From the IMG/VR virus record IMGVR_UViG_3300048591_000297, positions 1-22,407 of that record: a DNA stretch of 22,407 nt; one strand, 5' to 3'. The notes beneath the pieces are model-generated. The model did no database searches, had not been told where the DNA came from, and was given only the letters and a program-made list of their open reading frames with translations. Source of the stretch: a virus. Numbering within the stretch: the stretch's first letter is position 1; every line of letters begins with the position of its first letter. Both the position numbers and the translations under genes were made by a program. Below are positions 1,141 through 21,381 of this stretch, one piece after another.

Positions 1141-1157
1141 TTTAAACGGTGTTTAGA
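1141..1157 (-). repeat. Dispersed palindrome copy, upstream of MuF gene
   Basis: On the minus strand this reads TCTAAACACCGTTTAAA, ending 3 bases before the ATG at 1137. It fills almost the whole spacer between portal and MuF genes. It matches the copies at 3585-3601 and 11410-11426 almost exactly. Function unknown. Confidence 0.6.
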
Positions 1158-1160
1158 TGG

Positions 1161-2495
1161 TTAATGAGTATGAGTAGGGTCAGGGCAACAGTCATCACCA
1201 TACAGCTGTTGTATGTAGCTATGTAGTTGCATGTATTTACTGTAGTCGCTTTTGCCAGCCTCTTGCAGTGCCGCTGTCAGTTGCTTGGCTGCTGCCTCAG
1301 GGTCTTTCTGCTCTTTTACTGTAAGCGGCACACCATAGCGGTCAACAAAAAAGGCAGGGTCAATGTCATAGTATCGGAGCAGGCCTTCAAACACCAGCCA
1401 CTCCCCTTTGCCAAAGTCGGGCACCTGTGGAAAATCAAACTCCAGTTTGTCAAACTTGTAGCCGTGTATGTTCAGCAGTGGCATCACCTGCTCATTTATC
1501 CATGTGGCAGCATCGGCTCTGTTCTCATCGGCTGTCTCATTGCTGGTTTGCTGGTGCACCTCACCAAGCGCTCTGTTGCCACCATTGCTGCCTACATCGC
1601 TGGTCATGGTTTCACCAAGCAGCATTTTGCTCATTTCCATGTTGCAGGCCTCTTTCAGCTTATCAAACACATTGTAGCTGTCTGTGCGGTTTACCTCTTG
1701 AAACTTGAGACTTTCGCCTGTTTGAAAAATACCATAGGCGCTCTTGCCCATATTGATTAGCATATTTTTAAGCCGCTGCACATCTTTGGGAGAGGTGTTG
1801 TCAGTTTCCACATAGCGAATGGGCAGGCCGAACACTTCGCAAAACTCACTCCATGCCACCATTGCATTGCGCTTAAACAGCACATAGGGTGCAGCCGGGT
1901 TTAAATAGCCAAAGTTTCCACAGTCAGCCTCCAGCAGCCACTTCATCATGTCAGGGTCAGAACGGTAAGGAATAACAGTGGCGCTGCCCTGCTGCTGAAT
2001 GTAGCCGCCAAGCTCCGGCACCACAAACTTTCTCTTTACTAATTCAATGGCCTCAATGCCCTCTGTTCCCACCTGTTGCACCTGCATTAAGCTGTTGCCA
2101 TAAAAGTTGCTGTCACTCTTGTGTTTCAGTATATCGTAAAACCAGCGCTTTTGCAGCAGCTTAGTGGCCTCTTTGTCCACCTTGCCTGTTTTCTTGTCAC
2201 GCAGCACAAACGCACGCCCGGTGAGGTGCCTCCTGTATCGGTTAATAAGCATGATGATGTGAGGGTCAAGCTCCAGCTCCTCATACAGCTTTATCAAATC
2301 CCACCTTCTTGGCATTACTACAGACTCAGCACTGGCCAGTGCATTGCGCCAAGAGCTTACATCTTTTCGGCTCCGGTCATTGCTCCACTCCGTTATTCTG
2401 ATGAGTTGCTTTTCTGTTCGCTTTCTGCCTGTGGCTGATAGCTGTTTGCTCTTGTTGTCTGCTGAGCCGCTAAATAGTCCGTCAAATAAACCCAT
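1161..2495 (-). CDS. Portal protein, DUF935 / Mu gp29-like
   Basis: A 444-residue protein matching the DUF935 portal family (Mu gp29-like), which forms the dodecameric DNA gate at one capsid vertex and docks terminase and the neck. Diagnostic segments are the KRNAMVAWSEFCEVFGLPIR stretch (208-227), where family members have a conserved W..F.E.FG.P.R, and the GGNRALGEVH motif at 305-314. Length is a little under that of Mu gp29 (about 510). The Cys-, Asp- and His-rich end (DDCCPDPTHTH) is unusual but looks like a genuine terminus. In Mu the portal is followed by gpF, and here too the next gene is MuF-like. The ATG at 2495 is preceded by an A-rich stretch typical of Bacteroidota starts. Confidence 0.9.
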   Translation of the reverse strand: MGLFDGLFSGSADNKSKQLSATGRKRTEKQLIRITEWSNDRSRKDVSSWRNALASAESVVMPRRWDLIKLYEELELDPHIIMLINRYRRHLTGRAFVLRDKKTGKVDKEATKLLQKRWFYDILKHKSDSNFYGNSLMQVQQVGTEGIEAIELVKRKFVVPELGGYIQQQGSATVIPYRSDPDMMKWLLEADCGNFGYLNPAAPYVLFKRNAMVAWSEFCEVFGLPIRYVETDNTSPKDVQRLKNMLINMGKSAYGIFQTGESLKFQEVNRTDSYNVFDKLKEACNMEMSKMLLGETMTSDVGSNGGNRALGEVHQQTSNETADENRADAATWINEQVMPLLNIHGYKFDKLEFDFPQVPDFGKGEWLVFEGLLRYYDIDPAFFVDRYGVPLTVKEQKDPEAAAKQLTAALQEAGKSDYSKYMQLHSYIQQLYGDDCCPDPTHTH

Positions 2496-2500
2496 GTGCT

Positions 2501-2587
2501 TTATGCTGTTTTTTGTTTTAAGCCATTTTTATCAATAAATGCACTGCCTTGTGCCTGTGCTGTGCCGTTTCGCGGTGTAATAGCCAT
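2501..2587 (-). CDS. Possible 28-residue mini-gene between DUF1320 and portal genes
   Basis: The otherwise empty 113-bp spacer between the DUF1320 gene and the portal gene holds a short frame starting ATG GCT ATT ACA and reading MAITPRNGTAQAQGSAFIDK followed by NGLKQKTA and a TAA. It begins immediately after a copy of the dispersed palindrome, the same placement seen for the MuF and lysozyme starts, and stops 5 bases before the portal ATG. I recognise no family. It may be a real small virion or connector peptide, or merely a leader; the positional argument is the only support. Confidence 0.35.
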   Translation of the reverse strand: MAITPRNGTAQAQGSAFIDKNGLKQKTA

Positions 2588-2609
2588 TTAAACACCATTT
2601 AAACGGTGT
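2587..2609 (-). repeat. Dispersed palindrome, double/overlapping copy
   Basis: The plus strand reads TTTAAACACCATTTAAACGG then TGT. The first 17 bases match the repeat family, and the ACACC...GGTGT halves form a second, overlapping inverted repeat. It lies directly between the DUF1320 stop and the mini-ORF start. Confidence 0.5.
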
Positions 2610-3037
2610 CAGTATTCGCTGTTAAACTTGGTTTGGCTGTGTATAATGCCCCAAATGCCCGGAGTGTTATCATCAGCATCATCATCAGGCTGTGGTAAAC
2701 CCTTAGGCGCTAAGGTGCCTTTGTTTATATCCCTCAGTGTTTTTATGGCATCCTCATAGCGCATCCTCCTCAGCTCCGGTATGTTGCGCCCTGCTAAGCC
2801 GCTGTGCAAGTGGTATAAACAGAGGTCAACCATGCACATTACAATGGTTTTGTGGCGTGCTGTTGATGTGGCCGCAAATACAGCGTTGGTGTCATACTTG
2901 GTGTTGATGTAAGTCTCCACCTGACTCTTGGCAAACTCCTCAGCAGTTTCCAGCGAAGTGGCGCTGGCGGCTGATATTTCGGAAAGCGCATCGGGGGTGA
3001 TGACTGCGTATAAATCTTGGTTTGTTAGAAAGTTCAT
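2609..3037 (-). CDS. DUF1320 / Mu gp36-like head-completion protein
   Basis: A 142-residue soluble protein with the look of the DUF1320 (Mu gp36-like) family: a short N-terminal segment introducing 'LTNQDLYAVITPDAL', an all-helical middle (AEEFAKSQVETYINTKYD; IVMCMVDLCLYHLHSGLAG) and a C-terminal RRMRYEDAIKTLRDINKG helix, followed by an acidic DDDADD tail. Proteins of this type are thought to act as head-tail connector or head-completion components, joined to the portal. The gene starts 11 bases after the lysozyme stop, in the same minus-strand operon. The family call rests on pattern and context; an unrelated connector of the same fold is possible. Confidence 0.75.
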   Translation of the reverse strand: MNFLTNQDLYAVITPDALSEISAASATSLETAEEFAKSQVETYINTKYDTNAVFAATSTARHKTIVMCMVDLCLYHLHSGLAGRNIPELRRMRYEDAIKTLRDINKGTLAPKGLPQPDDDADDNTPGIWGIIHSQTKFNSEY

Positions 3038-3048
3038 AGAGATGTTGT

Positions 3049-3585
3049 TTACTTGGCAAAGAATTTAAGTGACCCGGTAAGGAACAGGTGGCGCTCACTC
3101 ATGCGCCTTACCTTTAAGCCTATCAGCTCTTTTCGCACTCCGTCTATAGTGGCCTTTGTCCACTTAGTAAACTCCTCAGCGGCTGCTGCAAAGTTTTCTT
3201 GGTTAATGAGCTTGAGCATTGTGCTGGTGCTAAAGTTGCCCTGCCCCACATTGTAAGCGAAAGAGGCCAGCGCGCCCACTTGGTCATCGGTCAGCTTGTT
3301 TGTTCTGAGCTTGTTCCTTACAATCGCCTCAAAGCGGCTCAAATCTTCTAACAGGTCAGCGGTGGCCTGCTCTATGGTTTTATTACCATAAATGCGCTCA
3401 GCCAGTGCTTTATTGGCGGCTCCCATTAAAGGCTTGTTGGTAGCCGGGTCAATAATCACACGGCCATAGCCACCTGTCCAGTAACCAGCCGGGCACAGCT
3501 TAGGTTGCAGGCCTACTTTTTTAAGGTTGCCATCGTGCAGGCTCTCATAGTGCTTTGCAAGGTTTATTGTGTTTTGTGTTATCAT
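3049..3585 (-). CDS. Endolysin: GH24 (T4-type) lysozyme
   Basis: A muramidase that would cleave peptidoglycan beta-1,4 glycosidic bonds at lysis. Residues visible from the chosen ATG: catalytic Glu14 in HYESLHDG, then CPAGYWTGGYG at 31-41 (the family's cPAG.wTiGYGh element, with Thr37 at the position of T4 Thr26 and Cys31 where T4 has Asp20), and QVGALASFAYNVGQGNFSTSTMLKL (102-126, split here only for reference), the conserved helical core. The usual GYGHT His is replaced by Arg (GYGR). There is no signal peptide, so a holin would be needed. I start at 3585, not at 3654, because the family begins just before the Glu helix, the longer frame overlaps the terminase end, and a palindrome copy sits directly before 3585. 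An endolysin between terminase and connector genes is an unusual place. Confidence 0.9.
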   Translation of the reverse strand: MITQNTINLAKHYESLHDGNLKKVGLQPKLCPAGYWTGGYGRVIIDPATNKPLMGAANKALAERIYGNKTIEQATADLLEDLSRFEAIVRNKLRTNKLTDDQVGALASFAYNVGQGNFSTSTMLKLINQENFAAAAEEFTKWTKATIDGVRKELIGLKVRRMSERHLFLTGSLKFFAK

Positions 3586-3601
3586 TTGAACGGTGTTTAA
3601 A
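3585..3601 (-). repeat. Dispersed palindrome copy, upstream of lysozyme gene
   Basis: The minus strand reads TTTAAACACCGTTCAAA; its last A is the A of the lysozyme ATG. It lies in the 19-base spacer after the terminase stop. Confidence 0.6.
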
Positions 3602-3604
3602 TGG

Positions 3605-5194
3605 TTAGTAAGCATTATCTCTTTCAACTGTTCCGAATACCGGTGAGAACTCACTCACCTTGTCCTTTCTGTTAAGCAGCCACACAGCGCCCTCCACTGC
3701 ATCCGGTGCATCATCATGCGCTTTGGCTCCCTGCTCAAAGGCAAGAAACTGCTCAATGCAGCGCTTTATATCATCGCTGTCCTTTTGCTTTTCGCTAAAC
3801 AGCACTACACCTCTCTCAAATAATGGTGAGAGGTTCTCAATGCGCGTGAACTTGTCAGGCTTTGCTCTCTTGTCTCCCCTTATAGCCAGCTGGTAGCCTC
3901 TGCTCTTTCCTTCAGTTTTAAACTCATCCAAAAACAAGTCCTGTATGTAGTTGGCCTCCATCCAAAAGTTGCAAATGATGTTGCTGTCTGTTTTTTGTAT
4001 GTGGTCATTGAGGTCGTACATATACTTAACAGCAGCACCTATGCTGCACTTGCGAACAAAGCAGGTGAGTATGTGGTATTGTGTAGTCTTTTTGCCTACC
4101 AGCACAATGGCTTTGTAGTCAGCAGTGGCAGTGGCTTTATAGCTTGGGTCAAAGTAGCAGAGCAAGTGGTCATACTCTTTCAGCGGCAATGGCTTGGTAA
4201 AATTGATGTGCTCGTTTTTAAACACCTTGCCCTCTATTACAGGCACGTTCATATACTCCCTCAGCCATGACCTCATTGTCTTATCCTCTTTCACTGCCTG
4301 CCAATACTCAGCGGTGTATTTTTCAGGCCACGCAGGCTGCATGTTATCATCTACAGCATTTACTTGCAGCATGTGCCAAAAGCCTTTTGCCTTGTAGGTA
4401 AATGCTCCGGGAGCTGTGACTTTTGAATAGAGCTTTTTGGCAGCAGTGGTGATGGCTCCCTTTAGTTTATCATCGCACAGCGTGCCTATAATACTGTGAG
4501 TAAACGGAGCATTGTTGACCACTACCAGCCGCTGGTTGCCTACATCAAAGCAGCCCATCAGGTCATCACAAACCCAATCGGTGCCCTTGCGCACACGCAT
4601 CTCATTGTTGCTCATTTCCTGTGTGTCCACATCATCTATCACTATGTAGTCAGGCCGCTGTGCTTCATTGCGCAACCCTCTTGGTGACTGTTGAAAGCCA
4701 AGAGCGAAAAACAGGCACCCGTCTTTTGTTTTAAAGTTGCCCTCCTCCCAAGTGCCATGACTGAACTGCTCACCAAAGTCAGTGATGTAGCGCTGGTTGC
4801 TCATCATTTGTGCTTGCAGGTCGCTCAGCAGCAGGCGTGCTTTGGTTTCGGTTTGCCCTACCAGTACCATAAACTTTAGCTCACCTTTTACCTTTAGCCA
4901 CATTGGCCATCCTATATCAGCGTGCACGCTCTTGGCTGCACCACGAAACCACTTGAGTAATAGCCTGATGATTTTGTGCTTAGCTAAGAGGCTGGCAATA
5001 AACACATGAAACCAGCTGCACTTGCTGGTAGCATACATGGGCAGGTAGTGCTCAAAGAAAAAGGCATAGTCTTTCTTGGCTCTTTCAATGCGTGCATACT
5101 TTACAGACATATCCTCATCAGCAGCCACCGGAGTAGCCTGCATGATTTTTCGCATGTTAAGCTCAAAGTCTTTTTGTGAGAGTTTGCTGGCCAT
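3605..5194 (-). CDS. terL: Terminase large subunit (TerL)
   Basis: A 529-residue ATP-driven DNA packaging motor and headful/cos nuclease. The ATPase half has a Walker A-like RGAAKSVH at about 84-91 and a Walker B YIVIDDVD at 183-190. The nuclease half shows the RNase H-fold acidic residues: Asp349 in CYFDPSYK, Glu413 in FWMEANYI, and the HDDAPDAVEGAVWLL motif at 493-507. Length is normal for the family. It begins 2 bases after the TerS stop and precedes the lysozyme gene. Cytoplasmic, docking on the portal encoded further along the same operon. The first Walker A Gly-x-Gly is GAA, an accepted variant in phage terminases. Confidence 0.95.
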   Translation of the reverse strand: MASKLSQKDFELNMRKIMQATPVAADEDMSVKYARIERAKKDYAFFFEHYLPMYATSKCSWFHVFIASLLAKHKIIRLLLKWFRGAAKSVHADIGWPMWLKVKGELKFMVLVGQTETKARLLLSDLQAQMMSNQRYITDFGEQFSHGTWEEGNFKTKDGCLFFALGFQQSPRGLRNEAQRPDYIVIDDVDTQEMSNNEMRVRKGTDWVCDDLMGCFDVGNQRLVVVNNAPFTHSIIGTLCDDKLKGAITTAAKKLYSKVTAPGAFTYKAKGFWHMLQVNAVDDNMQPAWPEKYTAEYWQAVKEDKTMRSWLREYMNVPVIEGKVFKNEHINFTKPLPLKEYDHLLCYFDPSYKATATADYKAIVLVGKKTTQYHILTCFVRKCSIGAAVKYMYDLNDHIQKTDSNIICNFWMEANYIQDLFLDEFKTEGKSRGYQLAIRGDKRAKPDKFTRIENLSPLFERGVVLFSEKQKDSDDIKRCIEQFLAFEQGAKAHDDAPDAVEGAVWLLNRKDKVSEFSPVFGTVERDNAY

Positions 5195-5196
5195 GT

Positions 5197-5676
5197 TTAT
5201 CTGTCTTTATGTTCGCGCAGCTTCATTTGCACGTAGGCTATATTCTTCTCAGCTATTCGCTGAGACAGTGGCAGGTCAATGTTGCTGAGCCATACCGTGT
5301 AACCATTCAGCACCTCCATCACCGTTTGCGGTTCAATGCTGTTGCGAAAGTTTTTGATGCTCTTGCTCAGCTTGGCAATGGTGTCGCTTTCGTGTGAGGT
5401 GAGCGCTCTTGGCTTACCGTTGTCATCCTTGGCATCATCCAGTATTTGATTGATACTTTCATTGAGCCTCTTGATGAGTGCCACCGGTGACACATTCCTT
5501 ATCCTTCGCTCCTCATCCCAACTATCATCCTCTCTCCACTTGCCTATTGTTTTGGCTTGTATGCCTAAGGCATCAGCTATCTGAGCAGCTGTCATGTCTG
5601 AGGTAACAAACATGAGCCGTGCAGTATCTCTTTTCTCATGCCTTTTGCGTGTGCTCTTTTTTGCCTTGTCGCTCAT
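5197..5676 (-). CDS. terS: Terminase small subunit (TerS), HTH type
   Basis: A 159-residue protein with a Lys/Arg-rich N-terminus (KKSTRKRHEKRD) followed by a helix-turn-helix at about 26-50 (MTAAQIADALGIQAKTIGKW), the arrangement typical of small terminases that recognise the packaging site. The rest is helical (residues 65-159) and would form the oligomerisation and TerL-contact region. It is the first gene of the minus-strand packaging operon and abuts terL with 2 bases between. An HTH regulator is the alternative reading, but position directly before TerL makes TerS far likelier. Confidence 0.85.
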   Translation of the reverse strand: MSDKAKKSTRKRHEKRDTARLMFVTSDMTAAQIADALGIQAKTIGKWREDDSWDEERRIRNVSPVALIKRLNESINQILDDAKDDNGKPRALTSHESDTIAKLSKSIKNFRNSIEPQTVMEVLNGYTVWLSNIDLPLSQRIAEKNIAYVQMKLREHKDR

Positions 5677-5725
5677 GTTGCAAAGATGATTTAAGGCGTG
5701 TGAACGGGTAAGAATTTTTATATGG

Positions 5726-5741
5726 TTTAAAGCCGTTCAAA
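5726..5741 (+). repeat. Dispersed palindrome copy in divergent spacer
   Basis: TTTAAAGCCGTTCAAA, one base shorter between the arms than most copies; a half-site GTTTAAAC follows at 5745-5752. Position between two divergent starts would suit an operator. Confidence 0.45.
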
Positions 5742-5781
5742 TACTGTTTAAACCTCTCACTTTAAAGCATAAAAAAGTGTT

Positions 5782-5819
5782 TTTTAATCAGGCGTTTGCC
5801 GCTGCATATTTGCACCATA
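5782..5819 (+). promoter_or_regulatory. Candidate Bacteroidota-type promoter for capsid/tail operon
   Basis: CATATTTG at 5805-5812 matches the Bacteroidota -7 box TAnnTTTG at five of six fixed positions, and TTTT at 5782-5785 lies at about the right distance for the -33 TTTG box. A start around 5819 would leave a leader of about 47 bases before the ATG at 5866. The match is imperfect. Confidence 0.35.
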
Positions 5820-5865
5820 AGACCGACTTTGAGCAGGTAAGAAAACACGAAACACAAAAAGCAAC

Positions 5866-6819
5866 ATGCCAGTAAAAAAGAAGTTTATCCTGAGTGACGA
5901 AAGCGTGAATAGCTATGGCTTTCGCGTGCTTACCTCAGGCATTGACATTACACAGTTTAAGGCCAACCCGGTGATGTTGCTTAACCATGATGAGGATGAT
6001 GTGCCCGGCAACTGGCAGGAGGTGAACATAGAGGATGGTAAGCTGGTAGCAGTAACCAACTTTGATGAGAAAGACCCTGAGGCCATGAAGCTGGCCAGCA
6101 AAGTAGAGCGGGGTTTTGTAAATGGTGCCTCTATAGGTTTTCAAATTTTGGAAACCAGCAATGACCCACAACTGATGTTGCCCGGTCAAACACGCCCCAC
6201 TGTTACTAAGTGTAAACTTTATGAGGCCTCTATATGCCCACTGCCAAGCAACTCAAATGCGCTGGCATTGTATGACACCACCGGCAAAAAGCTGAGCATG
6301 ACTGATGAGGTGCTCAACACATTCAAATTGTCACTAATACAATCCCAACATAAAACTGAGACCATGAAACTCAACCTTAAAAATTTACAGGCGCTTAACC
6401 TGCAAGAGAGCGCAACAGAGGCAGACATCAATGCAGCCCTTGAAACCCGTTTAAAGCAGGCCGCTGATGATGCTGCTGAGTTAAAGCAGTTGAAAGAGGC
6501 AGCTGCTGCCAAGCTGAAAGCCGATGCCAAGCAAGTGGTGGCTGATGCAGTAAAAGACAAAAAGCTGACAGCGGAGCAGGCTCCTGAGTGGGAGGCACTG
6601 GCTGAGCAGAATTTGGAGGCAGCTAAAAAGGCGCTCAGCTCTATGCCCGGAGTAAAGCCTATCAATACACAGTTGAAGGACGGAGAGGTGAAAACAGATG
6701 GTGTTGACCGCACTAACTGGAAGCTGAGCGACTGGAGAAAGAATGACTCAGAAGGCCTTGCCAAGTTAAAAGTGGACAGCCCTGAGAAGTATAAGGCATT
6801 GGTGGACGAAAACAAGTAA
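5866..6819 (+). CDS. Prohead protease (S78 type) fused to scaffold domain
   Basis: A 317-residue maturation protease that would trim head proteins inside the procapsid. Residues 1-145 fit the HK97-type S78 family: catalytic His41 in MLLNHDEDD, catalytic Ser89 in NGASIGF, and the closing LYEASICPLPSNSNALAL (118-135) strand. Residues 165-260 are Ala/Lys/Glu-rich and strongly helical (RLKQAADDAAELKQLKEAA), as expected for an internal scaffold. The last 45 residues are polar and may bind the capsid protein. This is the protease-scaffold layout of Mu gpI/Z and lambda C/Nu3. It is the first gene of the plus-strand operon. Confidence 0.88.
   Translation: MPVKKKFILSDESVNSYGFRVLTSGIDITQFKANPVMLLNHDEDDVPGNWQEVNIEDGKLVAVTNFDEKDPEAMKLASKVERGFVNGASIGFQILETSNDPQLMLPGQTRPTVTKCKLYEASICPLPSNSNALALYDTTGKKLSMTDEVLNTFKLSLIQSQHKTETMKLNLKNLQALNLQESATEADINAALETRLKQAADDAAELKQLKEAAAAKLKADAKQVVADAVKDKKLTAEQAPEWEALAEQNLEAAKKALSSMPGVKPINTQLKDGEVKTDGVDRTNWKLSDWRKNDSEGLAKLKVDSPEKYKALVDENK
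6364..6819 (+). CDS. Possible separate scaffold from internal in-frame start
   Basis: Met167 of the protease gene starts the helical scaffold half (MKLNLKNLQALNLQES), just after the protease domain and a short linker. The preceding bases (AACATAAAACTGAGACC) are A-rich like the other starts in this window. Mu and lambda make their scaffold from such internal starts. Expression from this ATG is inferred, not shown. Confidence 0.4.
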   Translation: MKLNLKNLQALNLQESATEADINAALETRLKQAADDAAELKQLKEAAAAKLKADAKQVVADAVKDKKLTAEQAPEWEALAEQNLEAAKKALSSMPGVKPINTQLKDGEVKTDGVDRTNWKLSDWRKNDSEGLAKLKVDSPEKYKALVDENK

Positions 6820-6874
6820 GCCACCGGCAACAGGAATTTTAAAACCATTCATAAAACACAACCCAAATACAACC

Positions 6875-7930
6875 ATGAAAACCATTTTCAATTTAGTAGT
6901 GACCCTCTTGATGGTGTCCTTTATTTCTGCCCCACTGGCAGCGCAACACAATTTTGACACCTCCACCACTACTGTGGTGTTGTTTGGTGCCCTCACTGCC
7001 ATAGGCTTTGCATCGTATGGTGTAGGCTTGCCCGGTATTACCTCAGCTGACTTAGCAAAACAGATATGGATAAGACAGCTGATGGAAAAGTTTTATGCTG
7101 AGAGTGGCCACTTAATGCGCTCACAGGATATGACTCAGTTTGTGGACTACAATACTATAAACCTTGGCGATGCCGGAGCAGACCCTGAGGTGCTTATAGA
7201 TAACAGCACATACCCTATCCCTGTGGAGGAAAGAGAGGACAGCCCGCTGGAAATTCCTTTGAGCCGTTTCCGTACCAAAAACACAGTCATCCGCGATGCA
7301 GAGAGTGTGGAGCTTTCATACGATAAAATGGAGAGCGTTATCAGAGGCCACAGAAACTCTTTGATTGAAACAACAGCTGCCAAGGCAACACACGCATGGG
7401 CACCAGCTGCTGACGGCTCTTATACTCCGGTAATACAGACCACCGGCTCTGCCAGCGATTTTGAAACAAGCCGCAAGGCCATCACTATTGCTGACATTGC
7501 CAATGCAAAGCGCAAACTGGATTTGTTGAAGGTGCCGCAAAATGGCCGCATCCTTGTGTTGCACCCTACCCATCAGGGAGACCTGTTGAAAGCAGACAGT
7601 GCCCTGCAAAAAGCATTTGCCAACCTTAAAACGGGTGAGATTTATACCCTGTTCGGCTTCGCTATTTATGTGAGCACGCTTACTGCTGTGTATAACAAAA
7701 ACACAGGCGCTAAGGTGGCTTACGGTGCAGCTGCTGCACCAAGCACCGACTCCGTTTCTTCCCTGTTTTACCATGAGGCTGAGGTGATGCGTGCTGATGG
7801 TGATGTAAAGATGTTTGCCCGGTTAAATGACCCTGAGGCTGACGGTGACATCATTGGCTTTAGCAAGCGCTTTATCGGTTTGCCAATTCGTAACAAATAC
7901 CAAGGCTCTATCATTAGTGCTGCCAGCTAA
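6875..7930 (+). CDS. Major capsid protein with N-terminal signal-peptide-like segment
   Basis: A 351-residue protein in the major-capsid slot, directly after protease-scaffold. From about residue 55 it resembles HK97-fold capsid proteins: an N-arm (ADLAKQIWIRQLMEKFY), a P-domain-like stretch (IRDAESVELSYDKMESVIRGH), an A-domain with RILVLHPTHQGDLLKADSA, and the closing DPEADGDIIGFSKRFIGLPI. Oddly the first 24 residues are a textbook Sec signal, MKTIFNLVVTLLMVSFISAP then LAAQ, followed by a second hydrophobic run (VVLFGALTAIGFASYGVGLPG, about 34-54). The A-rich leader before the ATG (ACACAACCCAAATACAACC) supports this start; no later Met before residue 70 is available. The hydrophobic arm could be a propeptide removed by the prohead protease. 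Confidence 0.8.
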   Translation: MKTIFNLVVTLLMVSFISAPLAAQHNFDTSTTTVVLFGALTAIGFASYGVGLPGITSADLAKQIWIRQLMEKFYAESGHLMRSQDMTQFVDYNTINLGDAGADPEVLIDNSTYPIPVEEREDSPLEIPLSRFRTKNTVIRDAESVELSYDKMESVIRGHRNSLIETTAAKATHAWAPAADGSYTPVIQTTGSASDFETSRKAITIADIANAKRKLDLLKVPQNGRILVLHPTHQGDLLKADSALQKAFANLKTGEIYTLFGFAIYVSTLTAVYNKNTGAKVAYGAAAAPSTDSVSSLFYHEAEVMRADGDVKMFARLNDPEADGDIIGFSKRFIGLPIRNKYQGSIISAAS

Positions 7931-7960
7931 TAACAACCCACACAGACCATAGATGACCAG

Positions 7961-7984
7961 CCCGGTGCCGTAAATGGCACCGGG
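7961..7984 (+). terminator. Perfect 9-bp hairpin after capsid gene (attenuator or mRNA-end structure)
   Basis: CCCGGTGCC, loop GTAAAT, GGCACCGGG. The stem is perfect and GC-rich but no T-run follows, so it is not a standard intrinsic terminator. It would suit partial termination or 3'-end protection of the highly needed capsid message. It lies in the 93-base gap between the capsid gene and the exported protein gene. Confidence 0.45.
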
Positions 7985-8023
7985 CATTGGCGGCAAAAGA
8001 AGTAACCAAAAAACGCAACACAC

Positions 8024-8782: not shown

Positions 8783-8792
8783 AAACCCGGAA

Positions 8793-8834
8793 AGAGCAGG
8801 CGGTGGGTGTTCGTCATGTTTCGCCCGCTGCTCT
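8793..8834 (+). other. Intergenic stem-loop before the coiled-coil membrane protein gene
   Basis: AGAGCA-g-GCGG at 8793-8803 pairs with CCGCTGCTCT at 8825-8834, giving a 10-bp stem with one bulged G and a loop of about 21 bases. It ends 16 bases before the ATG at 8851. It may tune transcription or translation of the lysis-like genes. No T-run follows. Confidence 0.35.
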
Positions 8835-8850
8835 GCTCACTGTTTTAGGT

Positions 8851-9683: not shown

Positions 9684-10065
9684 AGAAAAAGCAGTACAAC
9701 TAAGTGCTGCTGTAGTGGAGTGCTTTGAAACGCACCCAAATGAGAAAACAGTGCATGTGGTAACCGATGGCACTGTGTTTTTAAATGCCAGTAAAAACGC
9801 TGCCATAAACCATGCCCGGAGCATTAAGGGTGAAGTGGTAACAGTAAACAAAGGCGACAAACTGCCTTTTGATGAGATGGCTGAGGCTGCTGCTGCAACT
9901 GAGGAGCCTGCTGTAACTGAGGAGCCTGTTGCAACTGAGGAGCCTGCTGTAACTGAGGAGCCTGCTGCAACTGAGGAGCCTGTTGTAACTGAGGAGCCTG
10001 CTATAACTGAGGAGCCTGCTTCTAAAGGCAAAAGCAGTAAGGTTAAAAAGGACAAAAAGAAGTAG
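9661..10065 (+). CDS. Unrecognised small protein with TEEP hexapeptide repeats
   Basis: A 134-residue protein overlapping the end of the spanin-like gene by 23 bases. Residues 1-75 form a compact alpha/beta-looking domain (VHVVTDGTVFLNASKNAAIN, then HARSIKGEVVTV). Residues 80-121 are seven acidic hexapeptides, TEEPxx (x mostly Ala/Val), and the end is a very basic tail, KGKSSKVKKDKKK. I do not recognise a family. It lies where head-tail joining proteins are expected, just before the sheath gene, and may be a connector or a small virion protein, but nothing in the sequence proves this. Confidence 0.6.
   Translation: MVKSSLSKEKAVQLSAAVVECFETHPNEKTVHVVTDGTVFLNASKNAAINHARSIKGEVVTVNKGDKLPFDEMAEAAAATEEPAVTEEPVATEEPAVTEEPAATEEPVVTEEPAITEEPASKGKSSKVKKDKKK
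9898..10023 (+). repeat. Seven tandem 18-bp repeats (TEEPxx)
   Basis: Each unit is ACTGAGGAGCCT plus six variable bases (GCTGTA, GTTGCA, GCTGCA, GTTGTA, GCTATA and similar). The 12-base core is identical in all seven copies. Repeat number could change by slippage without breaking the frame. Confidence 0.9.
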
Positions 10066-11409: not shown

Positions 11410-11426
11410 TTTAAACACCGTTAAAA
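11410..11426 (+). repeat. Dispersed palindrome copy, upstream of tail tube gene
   Basis: TTTAAACACCGTTAAAA, lying 10 bases before the tube ATG at 11437 in the 37-base sheath-tube spacer. A weaker relative, TTTAAACAACCGGCAAA, sits at 11914-11930 directly on the start of the chaperone gene. Confidence 0.55.
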
Positions 11427-11897: not shown

Positions 11898-11929
11898 CAT
11901 TATTCAATCACTATTTAAACAACCGGCAA

Positions 11930-12319
11930 ATGGAATTTTTAAAGAATGAGCTGCCCTCATGGGTAACCGATGCAGACCTTGAAAAGTTAAACAAGTCTGC
12001 CACAGAAATAACACTGTGCGATGTTGACAGCCTTGTCAACAAAGGTGAGAAACTGGAATTTTTTGTAAAGGCGCCAAGCGACACGGCTTATGCTGCCAGT
12101 ATGCGCTTTATTACCAACAGCAAAGAGAACACTAATGATGTGGTGAAGATGCAAAAGACACTGTTTGACTTTTGCTTTTTAGTAGGTGAGCCTAAGCTAA
12201 TGCAGGAGCTGGAGAGCGAAGAAACGAAAGCAAGGCAGATGATAGCCATTGGCTTGCTGATAGGTGAGGCATACCCTATGCCTGAGGCTTCTGTAAAAAA
12301 AAGTTTCAGGAGAAAATAA
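11930..12319 (+). CDS. Tail assembly chaperone, zero-frame product (gpG-like)
   Basis: A 129-residue acidic, helical protein between tube and tape-measure genes, the slot of lambda G or Mu gp41-type chaperones that coat the tape measure during tail assembly. I start at ATG 11930 (MEFLKNELPSWVTDADLEKL) rather than at the GTG 11879, which lies within the terminator. The C-terminal residues VKKSFRRK are read just past an eight-A run, where a -1 shift would open a second frame (see the fusion entry). Confidence 0.75.
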   Translation: MEFLKNELPSWVTDADLEKLNKSATEITLCDVDSLVNKGEKLEFFVKAPSDTAYAASMRFITNSKENTNDVVKMQKTLFDFCFLVGEPKLMQELESEETKARQMIAIGLLIGEAYPMPEASVKKSFRRK

Positions 12320-14234: not shown

Positions 14235-14236
14235 CA

Positions 14237-14815: not shown

Positions 14816-15777
14816 TGTTGCAAATGATGTGTGAAATAGCCATAGGCAACCTGCCAACCTTTAAGCTCACCAGCGGTGTGTCTATTCGCACATCATGGAA
14901 AGAGCAGACAGACACCTGCACTATTGAGCTGCCCCGGAAGATTAAAAGCTATGAGGGCAAGCGCATGGATGATGTGATAAAGAGAGGCATGGAGGTGCGC
15001 GTGTTGCTTGGTTATGATAATAAGCTGAATGAGGAGTTTGTAGGCTACGTGACCAGCGTAAAGCCTACTTACCCGGTGCAAATAGAATGTGAGGATAAAA
15101 TGTGGCTGCTGAAAAAGTTACCGGTTAAGCCTAAGAGCTTTGAAGATGCCACAGTAAAAGATGTGCTCAACTACATCAATGTAAAGCAGCACATGGACTA
15201 TAAGGTGTTGGGTGACGTGCAGCTTGGCGCTTACCAAATAACACCGGAGTATGACACTGCTGCCAAAGTGTTGAAAAAGCTAAAGGATGACTACCCGGTG
15301 CTGATGAGCTTTATACGCGGTGGTGTGCTTTGTGTGGGAGACCCATACGATGCCACTTATGCCAAAGAGGTGCGCTTTTCATTTGGCCTAAACATTATTA
15401 GCCATGAGCTGGAGTATAGAAAAGCCGATGAGATAAGCTACCGGGTAAAGATGACCAGCAAGAATGATGATGGAAAGGAGACGGTGGTGTATGTGGGTGA
15501 TACGGACGGAGACCAGCGCACTTTTACAGAGCTGAACAAAACAGAGGCACAGCTAAAGGAGCTTGGGCAAAGGTATTTGGAGCAACTTAAATACGATGGC
15601 TTTCGCGGAAAGTTTACAGGCTTTGGCGTGCCACTTTGCAGGCATGGGTATATAGCCAACATAACTGACAGCGAAGAAAAGGAACGTGACGGCAAATATT
15701 ACATAGATGCCATTGATAAAACCTTTGATATGGGCGGCTTTAGGCAGATGGTTGAACTTGGTAAAAAGGCAGCTTAG
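14815..15777 (+). CDS. Baseplate hub protein, gpD (Mu gp44/P2 D)-like
   Basis: About 320 residues with the gpD/gp27 late-control fold pattern: CEIAIGNLPTFKLTSGVSIR opening strand, WKEQTDTCTIELPRKI, a VLLGYDNKLNEEFVGYVTSV strand pair, and VQIECEDKMWLLKKLPV, all features of the tail-hub ring. The trimeric hub caps the tube and carries the spike encoded next. I start at ATG 14815, which overlaps the previous stop (TGATG), though GTG 14812 and ATG 14827/14830 are also possible. The C-terminal YYIDAIDKTFDMGGFRQMVEL segment is usual for the family. Confidence 0.8.
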   Translation: MLQMMCEIAIGNLPTFKLTSGVSIRTSWKEQTDTCTIELPRKIKSYEGKRMDDVIKRGMEVRVLLGYDNKLNEEFVGYVTSVKPTYPVQIECEDKMWLLKKLPVKPKSFEDATVKDVLNYINVKQHMDYKVLGDVQLGAYQITPEYDTAAKVLKKLKDDYPVLMSFIRGGVLCVGDPYDATYAKEVRFSFGLNIISHELEYRKADEISYRVKMTSKNDDGKETVVYVGDTDGDQRTFTELNKTEAQLKELGQRYLEQLKYDGFRGKFTGFGVPLCRHGYIANITDSEEKERDGKYYIDAIDKTFDMGGFRQMVELGKKAA

Positions 15778-15807
15778 TATGACAGCGATACGTGAAGCAA
15801 TACAAAA

Positions 15808-16344
15808 ATGGCCAAGGATGGCAAAGCTCTGGTGCAGGTAATGGCAGGCACGGTAAAGAGTGTTGACTGGAATAAAAAGCACTGCCAAGTAGAGCTGCCT
15901 GATGGCCGTGTGTTTTACAAGGTAAGGCTCAGAGCTGTGTTAGATAACAGCGCAAAGGGTTTGGTGTTTAAGCCTGCAAAAAACAGCGCTGTGCTTATTG
16001 GCCTGATTGAAAACCTGCAAAATAGCGCCTTTGTGTGCATGGTTACTGAGCTGGATGCTATTGAGATAAAGACAGACTCCGATGTATTGAGCATAGATGT
16101 GCAGAATGGTGAGTTTGTGTTGAATGGTGGCAACAATGAGGGGCTGGTAAAAGTGGTGCAGCTTACTCAAAAGCTAAATGCTTTAGAGAAGGATATAAAC
16201 ACTATTAAAGGAGTGTTTAACGGTTGGACACCACAGCCTCAGGATGGAGGTGCAGCTTTAAAGTTAGCGGCACAAACATGGGCAGGCAGCTCATTGCAGG
16301 TTACTGCCAAGGCAGATATTGAAAACAATAAAGTGAAACACTAA
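15808..16344 (+). CDS. Baseplate spike assembly protein, gpV-like
   Basis: A 178-residue protein with an OB-fold core, VMAGTVKSVDWNKKHCQVEL, then VRLRAVLDNSAKGLVFKPAK and SAVLIGLIENLQNSAFVC, the pattern of Bacteroidota gpV/gp45-type baseplate proteins, and a C-terminal beta-repeat-like end (VLSIDVQNGEFVLNGGN). The reading frame as it stands starts at ATG 15808. Yet an ATG at 15779, one base after the previous stop, opens MTAIREAIQK, the expected N-terminal helix of the family, and leaves the frame one base short at an A5 run (15804-15808). So the true gene may start at 15779 with a one-base loss or a -1 slip. Confidence 0.8.
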   Translation: MAKDGKALVQVMAGTVKSVDWNKKHCQVELPDGRVFYKVRLRAVLDNSAKGLVFKPAKNSAVLIGLIENLQNSAFVCMVTELDAIEIKTDSDVLSIDVQNGEFVLNGGNNEGLVKVVQLTQKLNALEKDINTIKGVFNGWTPQPQDGGAALKLAAQTWAGSSLQVTAKADIENNKVKH

Positions 16345-16649
16345 TGAAAGACGTGCTGACAAATGACAGTGGTGATTTAGTGATAGAGAACGGTGACTTT
16401 GTAGTGGACTACAGTGAGGAGCAGCATGTGCAGGATATACTGATAAGCGCACCTGGCACATGGAAACAATGGCCGACTGTAGGTGTGGGTATTGTAATGA
16501 GGCAGGAAAAGGGATATACACGTGAAGCTCTTGACCGGTTAAAGAAAAACATAAAGCTGCAACTGATGGCTGATGGCATAAGAGCCAACAGAATAGAGGT
16601 AAAGCTGACAGGAAATGACATTCAAACTATCACTATAAACAGAGAGTAA
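16344..16649 (+). CDS. Baseplate wedge protein, gpW/gp25-like
   Basis: A 101-residue protein of the size and pattern of gpW/gp25 baseplate wedge proteins: an N-terminal strand pair (LVIENGDFVVDYSEEQHVQD), the helix ISAPGTWKQWPTVGVG, and a C-terminal domain with REALDRLKKNIKLQL. Its start overlaps the preceding stop by one base (TAATG), and it ends the same way against the next gene. Gp25-type proteins anchor the sheath to the baseplate. Confidence 0.75.
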   Translation: MKDVLTNDSGDLVIENGDFVVDYSEEQHVQDILISAPGTWKQWPTVGVGIVMRQEKGYTREALDRLKKNIKLQLMADGIRANRIEVKLTGNDIQTITINRE

Positions 16650-17032
16650 TGGCCAGCGTGTTAGTAGAGTATAATCAAAACATTTTCGACATAGCCATAC
16701 AGGAGTGTGGCAGTGCTGAAGCTGTGTTTGATGTATTGGCCAACAATGCCACTGTGCTCACCAGCATCAATGATGAGCTGGTGCCCGGCACCAAGCTAAA
16801 GGTGCCTGCTGAGCCTGCTAATGTGCAAGTGCTTAGCTATTTAAAAAGTAAGAGCATACGCATGGCATCTAATGCTGTAACAGCGCTGGCCGGTGAGGGC
16901 TTTTTGCTTAGTGAGGATGATGTGGTGTTGACTGATGAAACAAAAACAGCTTTAAAGCCTGAGGACTCAGAGCTGCTGGAGGAGGGCGGTGATAATTTAA
17001 CGGAGGAGGGCGGTGATAACTTAACCATGTAA
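16649..17032 (+). CDS. LysM-like tail protein
   Basis: A 127-residue protein with a single LysM-like fold at residues 5-53 (YNQNIFDIAIQECGSAEAVF, then LANNATVLTSINDELVPGTKLKVP), as in tail X proteins. Such proteins sit in the tail or baseplate and may bind peptidoglycan or tube. The C-terminus is acidic and ends in a doubled EEGGDNLT unit from a 24-bp DNA repeat. TAATG overlap with the gp25-like gene. Confidence 0.7.
   Translation: MASVLVEYNQNIFDIAIQECGSAEAVFDVLANNATVLTSINDELVPGTKLKVPAEPANVQVLSYLKSKSIRMASNAVTALAGEGFLLSEDDVVLTDETKTALKPEDSELLEEGGDNLTEEGGDNLTM
16978..17025 (+). repeat. Two tandem 24-bp repeats (EEGGDNLT)
   Basis: GGAGGAGGGCGGTGATAA(T/C)TTAAC twice in a row, one mismatch, in frame at the 3' end of the LysM-like gene. 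A recent duplication is the simplest reading. Confidence 0.85.
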
Positions 17033-17041
17033 CCAATAAAA

Positions 17042-18232
<1,191 letters not shown>

Positions 18233-18253
18233 AGAGTAAAAGAAACGCAGAGT

Positions 18254-18511
18254 ATGGAAACAACAAAGACAGGTTTTTTTGAGGAGGCACCGGGGGTGTC
18301 AAGCAACATGAGGCTGAGCAGCTTTATACTGTTGCTGTTTTTTATCACCTACCATTTGCCGTTTGGCTTTGCCAATGCCAATGCAGTAGCAGCTGGCAGG
18401 CCAATGGTATCACTCAGCGATAATCAGCTTTGGTTTGACCTGATGGTGCTGGTGTTCATTTTTATTCCTAAAGCGGCTCAAAAAATTATTGAGTTAAGGT
18501 TTGGGAAGTAA
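18254..18511 (+). CDS. Small two-helix membrane protein, holin-like
   Basis: An 85-residue protein with two membrane helices (about 20-38, LSSFILLLFFITYHLPFG, and about 63-75, LMVLVFIFIPKAAQKI). The FFEEAPGVSSNMRLSSF start and the PKAAQKIIE exit are patterns I associate with holin-like phage proteins. It could release the GH24 lysozyme, which has no signal peptide. It sits inside the tail module, not beside the lysozyme. A competing holin candidate is the protein at 8851. Confidence 0.55.
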   Translation: METTKTGFFEEAPGVSSNMRLSSFILLLFFITYHLPFGFANANAVAAGRPMVSLSDNQLWFDLMVLVFIFIPKAAQKIIELRFGK

Positions 18512-18530
18512 CCTTTTAAAGAGCAATTAA

Positions 18531-19379
18531 ATGGCAAGGACAGTAGGGGAAATTTATGAGGCTATAGTAGCGGAGAAAGCGGCCATGAGTCAGCTCACCG
18601 GCTTACAGCCGTCAATGGATGATGAGCAAACACTGCTGAATGACTTAACAACTACCAGCAAGGTGGCTACATGGAGGCTGTGGGCTTATGTTACTGCCTT
18701 TGTAATTTTTGCACACGAAAAACTGTGGGATTTATTCCGTGCAGAGGTGGAGAGCACTATCTCTACATTCAGACCGGGCACCTTGCGCTGGTATCAGGAG
18801 CAGGCCTTTGCTTTTCAATGCGGCTATGAGCTGACATGGAACAGCACCACACGCAAGTATGAGTATGCCACAGCTGATGCTGCTGCTAAACTTGTGAAGC
18901 TCTGCTCAGTTACGGAGCCGGGCGGTGTGGTGCGTATAAAGGTGGCTGATGTTGTTGGCGGTGTGGTGCAGGCGCTTACCACACCACAGCTGTCAGCTTT
19001 GCAGGCTTATTTTAATCTCATCAAATATCCGGGCAAGCTGGTGTGTGTAAGTTATAGTGCCGACCTGCTCAAAATCTATGGCACTATCAAATACAACCCT
19101 TTGGTAGATGTTGCACAGGTGCAAACAGACGTGCAGCAGGCTATCAATAGCTATATCAAAGGCCTGCCATTTAATGGCCGTTTCAATATCACTCAGCTTA
19201 TTGATAACGTGCAGGCGGTCACCGGTGTGGATGATTTTACCAGCGTGCAGGTAAGCACTAAATACGGAGCACTGGCCTATCAGGCGGTAAGTGACGAGTA
19301 TCAGACTTATGCAGGCTATGCACAAATTGACCCTGCCTTTTTATTAGTGGACACATTGACTTATACGCCTTATGTATAG
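18531..19379 (+). CDS. Baseplate J-like protein
   Basis: A 282-residue protein in the J position, followed by an I-like gene with an 8-base overlap. Pattern: an N-terminal helix RTVGEIYEAIVAEK, the WRLWAYVTAFVIFAHEKLWD stretch, GVVRIKVADVVGGVVQALTT, and a C-terminal ferredoxin-like domain with TDVQQAINSYIKGLPFNGRF and ITQLIDNVQAVTGVDDFTSV. This last segment (a helix, then 'l.i..l...i..v.GV.d...v.v') is shared with gpJ/gp47 baseplate proteins. It would form the wedge dimer connecting hub and fibres. Confidence 0.75.
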   Translation: MARTVGEIYEAIVAEKAAMSQLTGLQPSMDDEQTLLNDLTTTSKVATWRLWAYVTAFVIFAHEKLWDLFRAEVESTISTFRPGTLRWYQEQAFAFQCGYELTWNSTTRKYEYATADAAAKLVKLCSVTEPGGVVRIKVADVVGGVVQALTTPQLSALQAYFNLIKYPGKLVCVSYSADLLKIYGTIKYNPLVDVAQVQTDVQQAINSYIKGLPFNGRFNITQLIDNVQAVTGVDDFTSVQVSTKYGALAYQAVSDEYQTYAGYAQIDPAFLLVDTLTYTPYV

Positions 19380-19920
19380 CATTGATTTTGCCCTGCTCAT
19401 TAAAAGGCTGCTGCCTTGGTATAAGCGCAAGCCAGCAATGCAGGCATGGCTTTTCAGCCTTGTGGCACCTGTAAAGCAGCTGAATGATGCTTTTGCTTTG
19501 TATGTGGATGATGTGCGCTATAGGCTAAGCATCACCGGGCAGATTTTGCTTTTGGAAAAGCTGCTCAATGATAAGTTTAACAGTGGCTTACCGGCAAGAG
19601 CTGCCAGCTCCACTGTAGGGCTTTACGATGGCACACCTGCAGGCATTTACATATCAGACCCATCAGGTTTGATTTTGCCGGTGTATGTGTGGAATAAGGT
19701 AGAGCAGCGGCCAGCGGTAATACTTTACAACAAGGCTGAGGCTGAAACACCTACCTATCTATACAACAAGGCTGAGGTAGATGGTGAGTTTGATTTTATT
19801 GTAAATGTGCCTTACTCAGTGGGCAATGTCACCACAGATGCTGTGCTGCTTGCAAGGATAAAAGCATGGGTAAATGTTTACCGTATAGCAGGTAAACGGT
19901 TCAATGTAGTAAACTATTAA
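19372..19920 (+). CDS. Baseplate/tail protein, gpI-like
   Basis: A 182-residue protein starting inside the J-like gene. It has the N-terminal helical arrangement LLPWYKRKPAMQAWLFSLVA and VKQLNDAFALYVDDVRYRL. Then comes a repeated, glycine-poor stretch with VYVWNKVEQRPAVILYNKAE and the echo TYLYNKAEVDGEFDFIVNVP, and a final RIKAWVNVYRIAGKRF, which resembles the end of gpI-like tail proteins. It would link the J-type wedge to the tail fibre encoded next. Confidence 0.7.
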   Translation: MYSIDFALLIKRLLPWYKRKPAMQAWLFSLVAPVKQLNDAFALYVDDVRYRLSITGQILLLEKLLNDKFNSGLPARAASSTVGLYDGTPAGIYISDPSGLILPVYVWNKVEQRPAVILYNKAEAETPTYLYNKAEVDGEFDFIVNVPYSVGNVTTDAVLLARIKAWVNVYRIAGKRFNVVNY

Positions 19921-19931
19921 AACAAAATACC

Positions 19932-21086
19932 GTGAATAAACTAAAGACAAACATCAATGGAGGTTTCCCCTTTGATTTAGATGACCTGAGATGGATAGCT
20001 GATGGCATTGATGATGCCTTTAAAGGAATAGGCAAGCTGTTTGGTGACACTTACATCATCTCAGGCGTGCAGTTAGTGAATGTTAGCGGCTCTTTGTATG
20101 ATGTTACTGAGGGCTATGTGTATCTCAATGGTGAGGTGTGCAAGGTAGAGGCCAGCACCAGCTCCATTGATTTGGTAGCCACTCCGTATCTCTACTTAGA
20201 GCTGGAAAGCTCATACGATGCCACCGGGCTGGAAACCTTTGAGAACTCTGTGCAGCATGACACCTATGAAAAGCGCTTGGCCAAGGTAACAGCATACGCA
20301 TCTGCTCAGGTGGGGCTTGCCACTTATAGCTTTGGCACCAACACAGCAGAAAAGCTGCTCAATGCCATGATAGAGGGCTATTATCATCGGTTTACAGAGA
20401 GACAGTCATGGAATGAAGGAGCAGCCACGGCTTGCTCAGCTGGCAGCAATACTATTGCTGTATCACACCTCACTGGCAACCTATTTGAGCTGGATGGTAC
20501 CAGCTTTGACACCAACATTGTGCGCTTTAGCTCAGCCTCAGATGATGGCTCATGGTTTGCTTTAAAGATAACCAATGCACCTGTAGTGTTTGCGCAAACA
20601 ACAGCGCTCACCAACCTGATACAAACTCCCGGAGGTAAGCCGTTTAAGTTTATAGCTAATGAGGTGGCCATGTTCATAGTGTCAGGCGGTAAATTCTACC
20701 TGTGCAATGGCACAAGAGTGCATGATGATTGGCACCAAGTAGGAGCAACAGGAGAGCCAGCTTATCAAAATACTTGGGGGTCAGTTACATTTGCAGAGGT
20801 GCGATTTATTGCTCACCCTGATGATACGGTGGAAATACAGGGAACTTGCACGAATGGTGCGTATGACACTAACACTGATGATTTAGCTTTCACATTGCCA
20901 GTTACAACAGATGGCAAAACCTACAGGCCAACCAAAATACTAAGGTTTGACCGGTTAAATACTGAGGCATTTGAGCGTGCAATCGTTTCAATTCTATCAA
21001 ACGGTCAAGTGCAAATCAGAGTAGAAGGAAAAACAGCAGCAACAGTTGGCGTATCATTATCAGGCATAAGGTTTTCAACAAAGTAA
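19932..21086 (+). CDS. Tail fibre / receptor-binding protein
   Basis: A 384-residue protein starting at a GTG (MNKLKTNINGGFPFDLDDLR). The N-terminal region (LDDLRWIADGIDDAFKGIGK) is the usual baseplate-docking start of fibres in this phage group, and the middle is beta-rich. Residues 280-384 have the shape of a beta-sandwich tip: WGSVTFAEVRFIAHPDDTVE, GKTYRPTKILRFDRLNT and VSILSNGQVQIRVEGKTAAT. It is the last gene of the operon, followed by a strong terminator. The tip domain is the best candidate for host recognition. Confidence 0.8.
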   Translation: MNKLKTNINGGFPFDLDDLRWIADGIDDAFKGIGKLFGDTYIISGVQLVNVSGSLYDVTEGYVYLNGEVCKVEASTSSIDLVATPYLYLELESSYDATGLETFENSVQHDTYEKRLAKVTAYASAQVGLATYSFGTNTAEKLLNAMIEGYYHRFTERQSWNEGAATACSAGSNTIAVSHLTGNLFELDGTSFDTNIVRFSSASDDGSWFALKITNAPVVFAQTTALTNLIQTPGGKPFKFIANEVAMFIVSGGKFYLCNGTRVHDDWHQVGATGEPAYQNTWGSVTFAEVRFIAHPDDTVEIQGTCTNGAYDTNTDDLAFTLPVTTDGKTYRPTKILRFDRLNTEAFERAIVSILSNGQVQIRVEGKTAATVGVSLSGIRFSTK

Positions 21087-21106
21087 AGCCAAAGTAATAG
21101 GCAAGC

Positions 21107-21137
21107 AAAAGGCTCACATTTTAGTGAGCCTTTTTTT
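21107..21137 (+). terminator. Strong intrinsic terminator after tail fibre gene
   Basis: AAAAGGCTCAC, loop ATTTTA, GTGAGCCTTTT then TTT. The perfect 11-bp stem with T-run closes the plus-strand structural operon 20 bases past the fibre stop. Confidence 0.9.
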
Positions 21138-21145
21138 GTTGGCTG

Positions 21146-21381
21146 TTTAAACAACGCCTAAAAGCCATATAAACTCAATTCAAACAGCGATTAAGCACTC
21201 AATTAAAACAGGCTATTTTAAAGCGATTTAAGCCACTTTACTGAAATGACAGTTAAGTGTAAGCTGAGTAAGAGTTTTTGAGCTAAAGGCATAAAAGCAC
21301 TCAAAGCAGAAGTGTTTAACGGTTTTAATTGTATGTAAAGTTGTCTACTGGCCACAAAAAGCGCTTCAAAACCGATTAAAA
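21146..21381 (+). repeat. Cluster of dispersed-palindrome relatives
   Basis: Best copies: TTCAAACAGCGATTAAG at 21179-21195, TTTAAAGCGATTTAAG at 21217-21232, TTTAACGGTTTTAA at 21315-21328 (reverse orientation), and TTCAAAACCGATTAAAA at 21365-21381. A weak one, TTTAAACAACGCCTAAAA, lies at 21146-21163. All share the AAA-x-CG-x-TT core of the copies found inside the phage operons. Confidence 0.5.

Follow-up and report, generated by a model that had tools for sequence, protein, structure and literature searches.

Helically phased TTTAAA arrays in Mu-like phages of two bacterial phyla as candidate sites of gyrase wrapping

We analysed the complete IMG/VR record IMGVR_UViG_3300048591_000297 (22,407 bases, hereafter the window), which carries part of a Mu-like phage, and followed up an initial annotation that had noticed a dispersed imperfect palindrome in the short spacers between the phage genes. 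We found that the conserved unit is the hexamer TTTAAA at one-turn spacing (10-11 bp), not the 17-mer itself, and that this phased signature recurs in Mu-like phages of two bacterial phyla, where the arrays occupy preferred positions and are strongly enriched in transposable phages over the controls examined. The reading that we favour, to which we give a little less than an even chance, is that the phased arrays would be DNA of the strong gyrase site (SGS) type, wrapped by host gyrase, with the central array acting as the SGS and the others as accessory sites.

A TTTAAA step once per helical turn

Because a scan of viral contigs with TerL as a single protein recovered no relative, we searched for relatives by terminase alignment and kept the best 80 from each of two lists, of 364 viral and 250 genome relatives. 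Together with the window and five other records, these formed a Bacteroidota set of 166, from which 30 near duplicates were removed to leave 136 loci (2.23 Mb, of which 0.26 Mb, or 12% of bases, is noncoding). Genes in the loci were called with our own simple caller, and host stretches were used without gene calls. The motif is kept in these related phages, with 9, 27 and 92 noncoding matches at up to 1, 2 and 3 mismatches, compared to 0, 0 and 5 in the reversed-sequence control. Coding DNA gave 3, 14 and 93 matches (reversed control 0, 1 and 10), which is not an equal density, as noncoding DNA makes up only 12% of the bases. Controls with the same arms and a shuffled core yielded intermediate counts (e.g., 0, 8 and 51 in noncoding DNA), indicating that arms and core both matter. 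In the host chromosome, scanned in 16 host genomes of about 55 Mb with prophages included, we observed no excess, with 66 matches at up to 2 mismatches versus 93 in the reversed control. As the relatives carry the motif while the host shows no excess of it, the initial annotation was right about a DNA-level signal; the three functions that it had proposed (operator, translation leader and transposase sites) fare less well, as weighed below. It had also stressed a conserved ACACCG core, whereas what is conserved is not this core alone but the helical phasing of TTTAAA.

The distances between TTTAAA copies peak sharply at 11 bp, and echoes of this peak appear at 22 and 33 bp. Exact 11-bp pairs numbered 69 against a background of 2.3 in the 35 low-GC loci and 12 against 0.6 in the 101 other loci, a 20-30-fold enrichment over background across the 136 loci, and, among 20 words compared, TTTAAA scored 43 with AAAAAA as the runner-up at 3.5. 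Host DNA (38 stretches, 760 kb) held 4 exact 11-bp pairs versus 1.7 at low GC and 0 versus 0.06 in the rest, and allowing one mismatch gave 24 versus 35, again no excess. These stretches were 38 of an original 40, since L248 lay within a known prophage and L259 possibly overlapped one; they hold no gamma-proteobacterial DNA.

The coding copies are partly FKxxLK-type codons, and we therefore counted the coding signal only after collapsing it into families, so that it is the noncoding DNA that carries the case. With homologous neighbourhoods collapsed (core masked), the 11-bp class in the Bacteroidota set comprised 16 coding families and 29 noncoding clusters, compared to a maximum of 6 coding and 10 noncoding among the other listed spacings from 8 to 23 bp, reached at 22 bp, i.e., two turns. 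Between the TTTAAA copies the DNA is richer in G/C, and the A/T content around the sites oscillates out to about 40 bp, in an average that is weighted by homologous arrays. One candidate was rejected: a hot spot at +3500 from TerL in the Bacteroidota loci was traced to the degenerate word TT[TC][AG]AA together with a conserved coding stretch of MuF and discarded as an artefact, after which tests were restricted to noncoding arrays or exact TTTAAA.

Occurrence and placement of the arrays

We found an excess of TTTAAA phasing in Mu, SuMu, TCUEAP3, fF4, Peternella_1 and hankyphage, and examined it further in sets of relatives. The SuMu-type set, collected as relatives of the SuMu portal, retained 43 loci (878 kb) after removal of 28 of 71 as duplicates; near-duplicate removal also took out 10 of the 22 Mu-type loci and 14 of the 21 HP1-type loci, leaving 7 of the latter (138 kb). 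In SuMu-type loci, exact TTTAAA pairs numbered 59 at 10 bp, 134 at 11 bp, 20 at 12 bp, 53 at 21 bp and 51 at 22 bp, with fewer than 10 at any other distance up to 60 bp except 17, 18, 20, 31, 33 and 39. These counts are inflated by homology, the 11-bp class collapsing to 7 coding families and 13 noncoding clusters. The exact-TTTAAA peak was not found in lambda, in P2, in the 7 HP1-type loci or in four non-transposable Bacteroidota phages (179 kb). For the looser word TT.AA, the excess was 3.5-11.8 in transposable sets of up to 55% GC, compared to a mild 1.8 in HP1-type loci and 1.2 in the non-Mu Bacteroidota phages. When all sets were given the same array score, arrays of at least 25 bits occurred at 5.6, 16.3 and 10.1 per 100 kb in the Bacteroidota Mu-like, SuMu-type and Mu-type sets, versus 0.7 in HP1-type loci, 0.5 in host DNA, 1.1 in non-Mu Bacteroidota phages and 0 in lambda and P2, and control periods of 8, 14 and 16 gave at most 1.0 array per 100 kb in the transposable sets.

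An exact scan of viral contigs for TTTAAACACCGTTYAAA returned 74 stretches, some from contigs that are near copies of one another, and 46 of them match at least one Mu-like query (E 1e-6), although portal or terminase matches alone do not prove transposition. In 10 of these stretches the site lies between F or G and I homologues (at most 330 bp from both), in 8 it lies between gp36 and portal, and in 5 it stands 2-3 nt ahead of a MuA match. Four contigs with the exact motif match P2-type queries only (L074, L032, L056 and L076), L074 having a multi-unit array, and a few P2-like phages may share the element.

In 25 of the 43 SuMu-type loci, which were chosen by protein and independently of the motif, the top noncoding array was flanked by F/G and I homologues, in the spacer that holds the SGS in Mu. 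By position, +3000 to +4000 likewise held 25 of the 43 top arrays (p 1.5e-12 versus its noncoding share), and a degenerate-word phased pair was present within +3300 to +4300 in 37 loci, often as TTTAAA-4-TTTAAA-5-TTTAAA-4-TTTAAA. Loci shorter than 9 kb were excluded from top-array placement, and the window was excluded from the anchored position tests. The SuMu-type loci have a second hot spot of phased pairs at about +9500, counted from the portal start and seen in 20 of the 38 loci that cover it, with a degenerate word for which coding artefacts are possible; in SuMu it falls ahead of the tape-measure gene. Among Bacteroidota loci with an array, the top array fell at the gp36-portal position in 21 of 99 (p 1.6e-5), and it was confirmed between gp36 and portal homologues in 16 of 101 (113 loci examined). 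In Mu, the gyrase cut site is annotated at 17879, and an array of 27.0 bits runs alongside it at 17894-17985. SuMu and fF4 carry their three best arrays near the centre (at 0.495 and 0.475 of the genome, respectively) and near both ends; the best array is at the right end in Peternella_1 and not central in Mu, TCUEAP3 and hankyphage. In Mu (20051-20100) and loci L293, L295, L298, L301, L305, L308 and L309, the major head gene is followed by a hairpin-like sequence together with a phased TTTAAA array. Further dispersed arrays of Mu lie at 3304-3342 and 35159-35251.

Gyrase wrapping and competing explanations

A TTTAAA-like step in each helical turn, with G/C-richer DNA between the steps, would make DNA easy to wrap, and in transposable phages such arrays would, on the favoured reading, act as wrapping arms for host DNA gyrase. 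Passages of a Topo-Seq study of E. coli describe a gyrase motif of 130 bp whose 47-bp arms have a 10.75-bp period, with AT at positions where the minor groove is turned towards the enzyme (PMC6379681). The phage arrays resemble it in an A/T-G/C alternation of about 10.75 bp in the arms and differ in being built on one strong word, TTTAAA, that is kept nearly exact, and in being recognised here as one arm rather than as a full motif with two arms and a central cleavage part. A review describes the right arm of the Mu SGS as essential and as containing bending-inducing repeat motifs (PMC10052514, excerpt), and a preprint on deformability concurs, in the part available, that wrapping is sequence-dependent (PMC12393610). 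Since the arrays fit gyrase arms and their position in SuMu relatives is the place of the SGS, we take the central array as the candidate SGS. This near-centre array, found in the G-I spacer of Mu relatives and, for some of the Bacteroidota Mu-like phages, in the gp36-portal spacer, would enable the two distant phage ends to pair for replicative transposition. The dispersed copies and the right-end array (247 bp in the window) might then be accessory wrapping or domain-forming sites. The phasing, the enrichment and the positions are read from the sequences themselves, whereas the identity of the wrapping protein as gyrase, a function of the central array and the help given to it by dispersed copies are inferences. 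The likeness to the Mu SGS lies in the shared F/G-I spacer of the 25 SuMu-type loci, in helically phased A/T steps within the arm and in the array beside the annotated Mu cut site. As differences, the Bacteroidota candidate sits in the gp36-portal spacer, in part of the phages and often next to a start codon, many more arrays are scattered through the same genome, and the gyrase activity of the phage arrays is predicted from sequence.

Several observations weigh against gyrase wrapping. The top Mu-type array lies between F/G and I in just 3 of 11 loci, the other 8 having it at +5497 to +5956 from the portal start, behind the head gene; in Mu itself, the array at the SGS ranks fourth, and the best array is central in only 2 of 6 complete transposable genomes (SuMu and fF4). 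In the Bacteroidota set, 85 of 101 top arrays were not placed in the gp36-portal spacer, 7 of them through lack of a flank match. Many sites consist of just two units (17 bp), well below the 47-bp arm, and wrapping by gyrase does not predict a phase to the start codon or the orientation preference (54 to 15) described below. The plasmid pSC101, which carries a known gyrase site, has just two arrays of at least 16 bits, both below 25. The GC-rich transposable phages D3112, RcapMu and FP_Mushu lack phased TTTAAA, so that the code is either spelled differently at 60-65% GC or less than universal. Finally, 4 of the 74 stretches with exact TTTAAACACCGTTYAAA match P2 queries only, and 24 match no query.

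The arrays might instead load the AAA+ protein MuB, or a nucleoid protein, throughout the genome and thereby mark the phage as self, set it apart as a separate domain and protect it from self-insertion. We consider this unlikely, yet among the rivals it holds the most interest, since strong MuB binding across the whole of Mu has been reported in vivo, even though the interior of Mu is not A/T-rich (PMC2837660, excerpt). MuB loading would suit a signature that stands out in Mu-like phages while the other phages examined show it marginally or not at all, as well as sites that are dispersed and reach the right end; moreover, passages of PMC11208146 describe the related ATPase IstB as bending target DNA with a roughly helical spacing of dimers. 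However, genome immunity is only slightly weakened without MuB (PMC7350765, excerpt), and the SuMu-type hot spot is non-uniform and coincides with the place of the SGS; MuB binding to the arrays is itself a prediction. A further rival is an A/U-rich leader just upstream of start codons that could raise the translation of phage genes. Of the noncoding exact arrays, 34 of 50 in Bacteroidota loci and 48 of 100 in SuMu/Mu-type loci have a start no more than 40 bp away, the distances from site to ATG peak at 0-5, 9-13, 20-24 and 29-35, and 72 forward and 38 reverse matches are both in fixed phase to the ATG. The core runs along transcription in 54 of 69 oriented near-start cases (tandem sites counted singly), and regions upstream of genes are A-rich at -3, -6 and -11 to -14. 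These A-rich positions could themselves impose the ATG phase on a DNA element that is squeezed between stop and start. We regard a leader as quite unlikely, given that a generic Bacteroidota leader would serve host genes too and the element is not in excess in host DNA, that the exact sites of Mu relatives in 10 F/G-I spacers, 90-329 bp from gene I, are left unexplained, that the remaining 52 of the 100 noncoding SuMu/Mu-type arrays lie more than 40 bp from a start, that in-gene copies are also in excess (16 families), and that a leader needs no helical period.

Dispersed operators for a phage regulator appear very unlikely, even though the palindromic core, the sites in short spacers, their orientation along transcription and the array in the window's own divergent TerS-protease spacer would all suit them. 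Mycobacteriophage L5 has such dispersed operator sites, its stoperators, which resemble the phage element in being many, short, oriented and in spacers; the phage element differs in being common to two phyla and helically phased and in having no known repressor; the repressor of the phage is not encoded in the window. A single motif shared by Bacteroidota phages and Mu/SuMu relatives is not readily explained by one regulator, and neither is strong phasing over multiple turns. The divergent, likely promoter-bearing spacer of the relatives is also poor in sites, its bins holding 0 of 74 noncoding events (about 24.5 kb) and 4 of 99 top arrays, which leans against operators, although the window itself has an array there. 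Binding sites for the phage transposase, whether end sites or an internal enhancer, are highly improbable. Mu ends carry MuA-binding sites, and in the window, Peternella_1, fF4 and TCUEAP3 an array does lie near the phage end, no more than about 350 bp from the right one; yet the inferred end sites of the window are a distinct 20-nt repeat pair, and the arrays are dispersed, spacers of structural genes included, rather than confined to the termini.

A broader proposal, which we place on the unlikely side, is that a genome-wide code of phased TTTAAA, at the centre, near the right end and between, in at least two phyla, folds the phage into a topological domain and marks it as self. If true, such a code would supply the extra phage sequences needed by the central gyrase site of Mu and would form a DNA basis for genome immunity. 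A searchable signature common to Bacteroidota and gamma-proteobacterial Mu-like phages provides candidate sites for two processes of a 37-kb transposable prophage, the pairing of its ends and the avoidance of self-insertion. SGSs are reportedly known from Mu and a few Mu-like prophages (studies of 2004 and 2006), and the signature predicts SGS positions in phages for which searches limited to an open-access library gave no paper with an SGS named in its title or abstract. At this title and abstract level, we found neither SGS-type sites named in Bacteroidota phages nor dispersed phased TTTAAA arrays described in transposable phages, and, among open-access papers containing the exact string TTTAAACACCG, none was a phage paper by title. 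A candidate SGS has been proposed for Pseudomonas phage Ab30 (PMC5977238, excerpt).

The window phage and its sites

All sites listed in the initial annotation are present in the window, and their enrichment was borne out: six matches to TTTAAACACCGTTTAAA at up to 3 mismatches compare to a mean of 0.13 in 100 dinucleotide shuffles, of which the best reached 2 and none reached 6. Four of the matches, at 1141, 2587, 3585 and 11410, have one mismatch; the other two, at 5736-5752 and 21146-21162, were missing from the earlier list. The phased sites and arrays, together with the repeats at the right end, are as follows.

1141..1157, minus strand: two-unit phased site TCTAAACACCGTTTAAA between the portal stop and the MuF start, 1 mismatch
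2576..2647, no strand: phased array of 23.0 bits in and beside the gp36-portal spacer, containing the near-palindrome 2587-2603
3585..3601, minus strand: two-unit phased site TTTAAACACCGTTCAAA after the TerL stop and directly before the lysozyme start, 1 mismatch
5716..5787, no strand: phased array of 26.8 bits in the divergent TerS-protease spacer, spanning 5726-5752
11410..11426, plus strand: two-unit phased site TTTAAACACCGTTAAAA, 10 bases ahead of the start of the gene that follows the sheath gene, 1 mismatch
11903..11942, plus strand: weaker phased site of 16.8 bits, TTTAAACAACCGGCAAA, where the next small gene starts
21135..21381, no strand: degenerate phased array of 247 bp, 37.2 bits and 23 units, between the last tail gene and the inferred right end
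21395..21437, no strand: right-end repeats, two 20-nt direct repeats, 23 bp from start to start

From its position in relatives, the array at 2576..2647 is the candidate SGS of the window phage. The score of the array at 5716..5787 was matched by 2 of 500 Markov resamples, and that of the array at 21135..21381 exceeded the scores of all 500 first-order Markov resamples drawn from the region. A site previously given as 5726-5741 was replaced in our scan by the match at 5736-5752, both lying inside the same phased array. Likewise, the right-end sites at 21179, 21217, 21315 and 21365 are weak one by one and fall within the single phased array there. A half-similar site is found at 11914, ahead of the next gene. 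Placement directly before start codons held for 1141 (MuF) and 3585 (lysozyme), where the order is stop codon, site and ATG, with the gap filled. The 2587 site, said to precede a mini-ORF, lies in the gp36-portal spacer and touches the start of this 28-codon frame (2501-2587, minus strand), and the 11410 site, said to lie before the tail tube, ends 10 bases ahead of the ATG of a gene that was so called without a Pfam match. At 1141, 3585 and 11410, the ACACC core is oriented along transcription, a feature absent from the initial annotation.

As an incomplete record, the window does not cover the whole phage genome. Its minus-strand genes encode MuF, a Mu-type portal, gp36, lysozyme and terminase, and the plus strand carries the protease, a sheath-type gene (DUF2586), the tape measure and further genes. 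Compared by large terminase, the closest phages with a name are Flavobacterium phage fF4 (37%) and Winogradskyella phage Peternella_1 (33%), which are both classed in Winoviridae, and faecal phage contigs reach 43%. The annotation of Peternella_1 includes a DDE transposase and a transposase B, and that of fF4 a DDE transposase. By analogy with Mu, the two 20-nt repeats may be R1/R2-like transposase-binding sites, and the prophage right end (TGCA) would lie at about 21442. If the repeats and TGCA are read in this way, the gene beyond the phage genes, which has DUF6035 and CoiA-nuclease matches, is probably host DNA. An Rfam search of the window gave no match. In-frame repeats of the EEPAVT/EEPVAT type occur at 9885-10020, in a small protein preceding the sheath gene, and collagen-like Gly-Ala-Thr repeats occur at 17482-17620, in a predicted protein among the tail genes.

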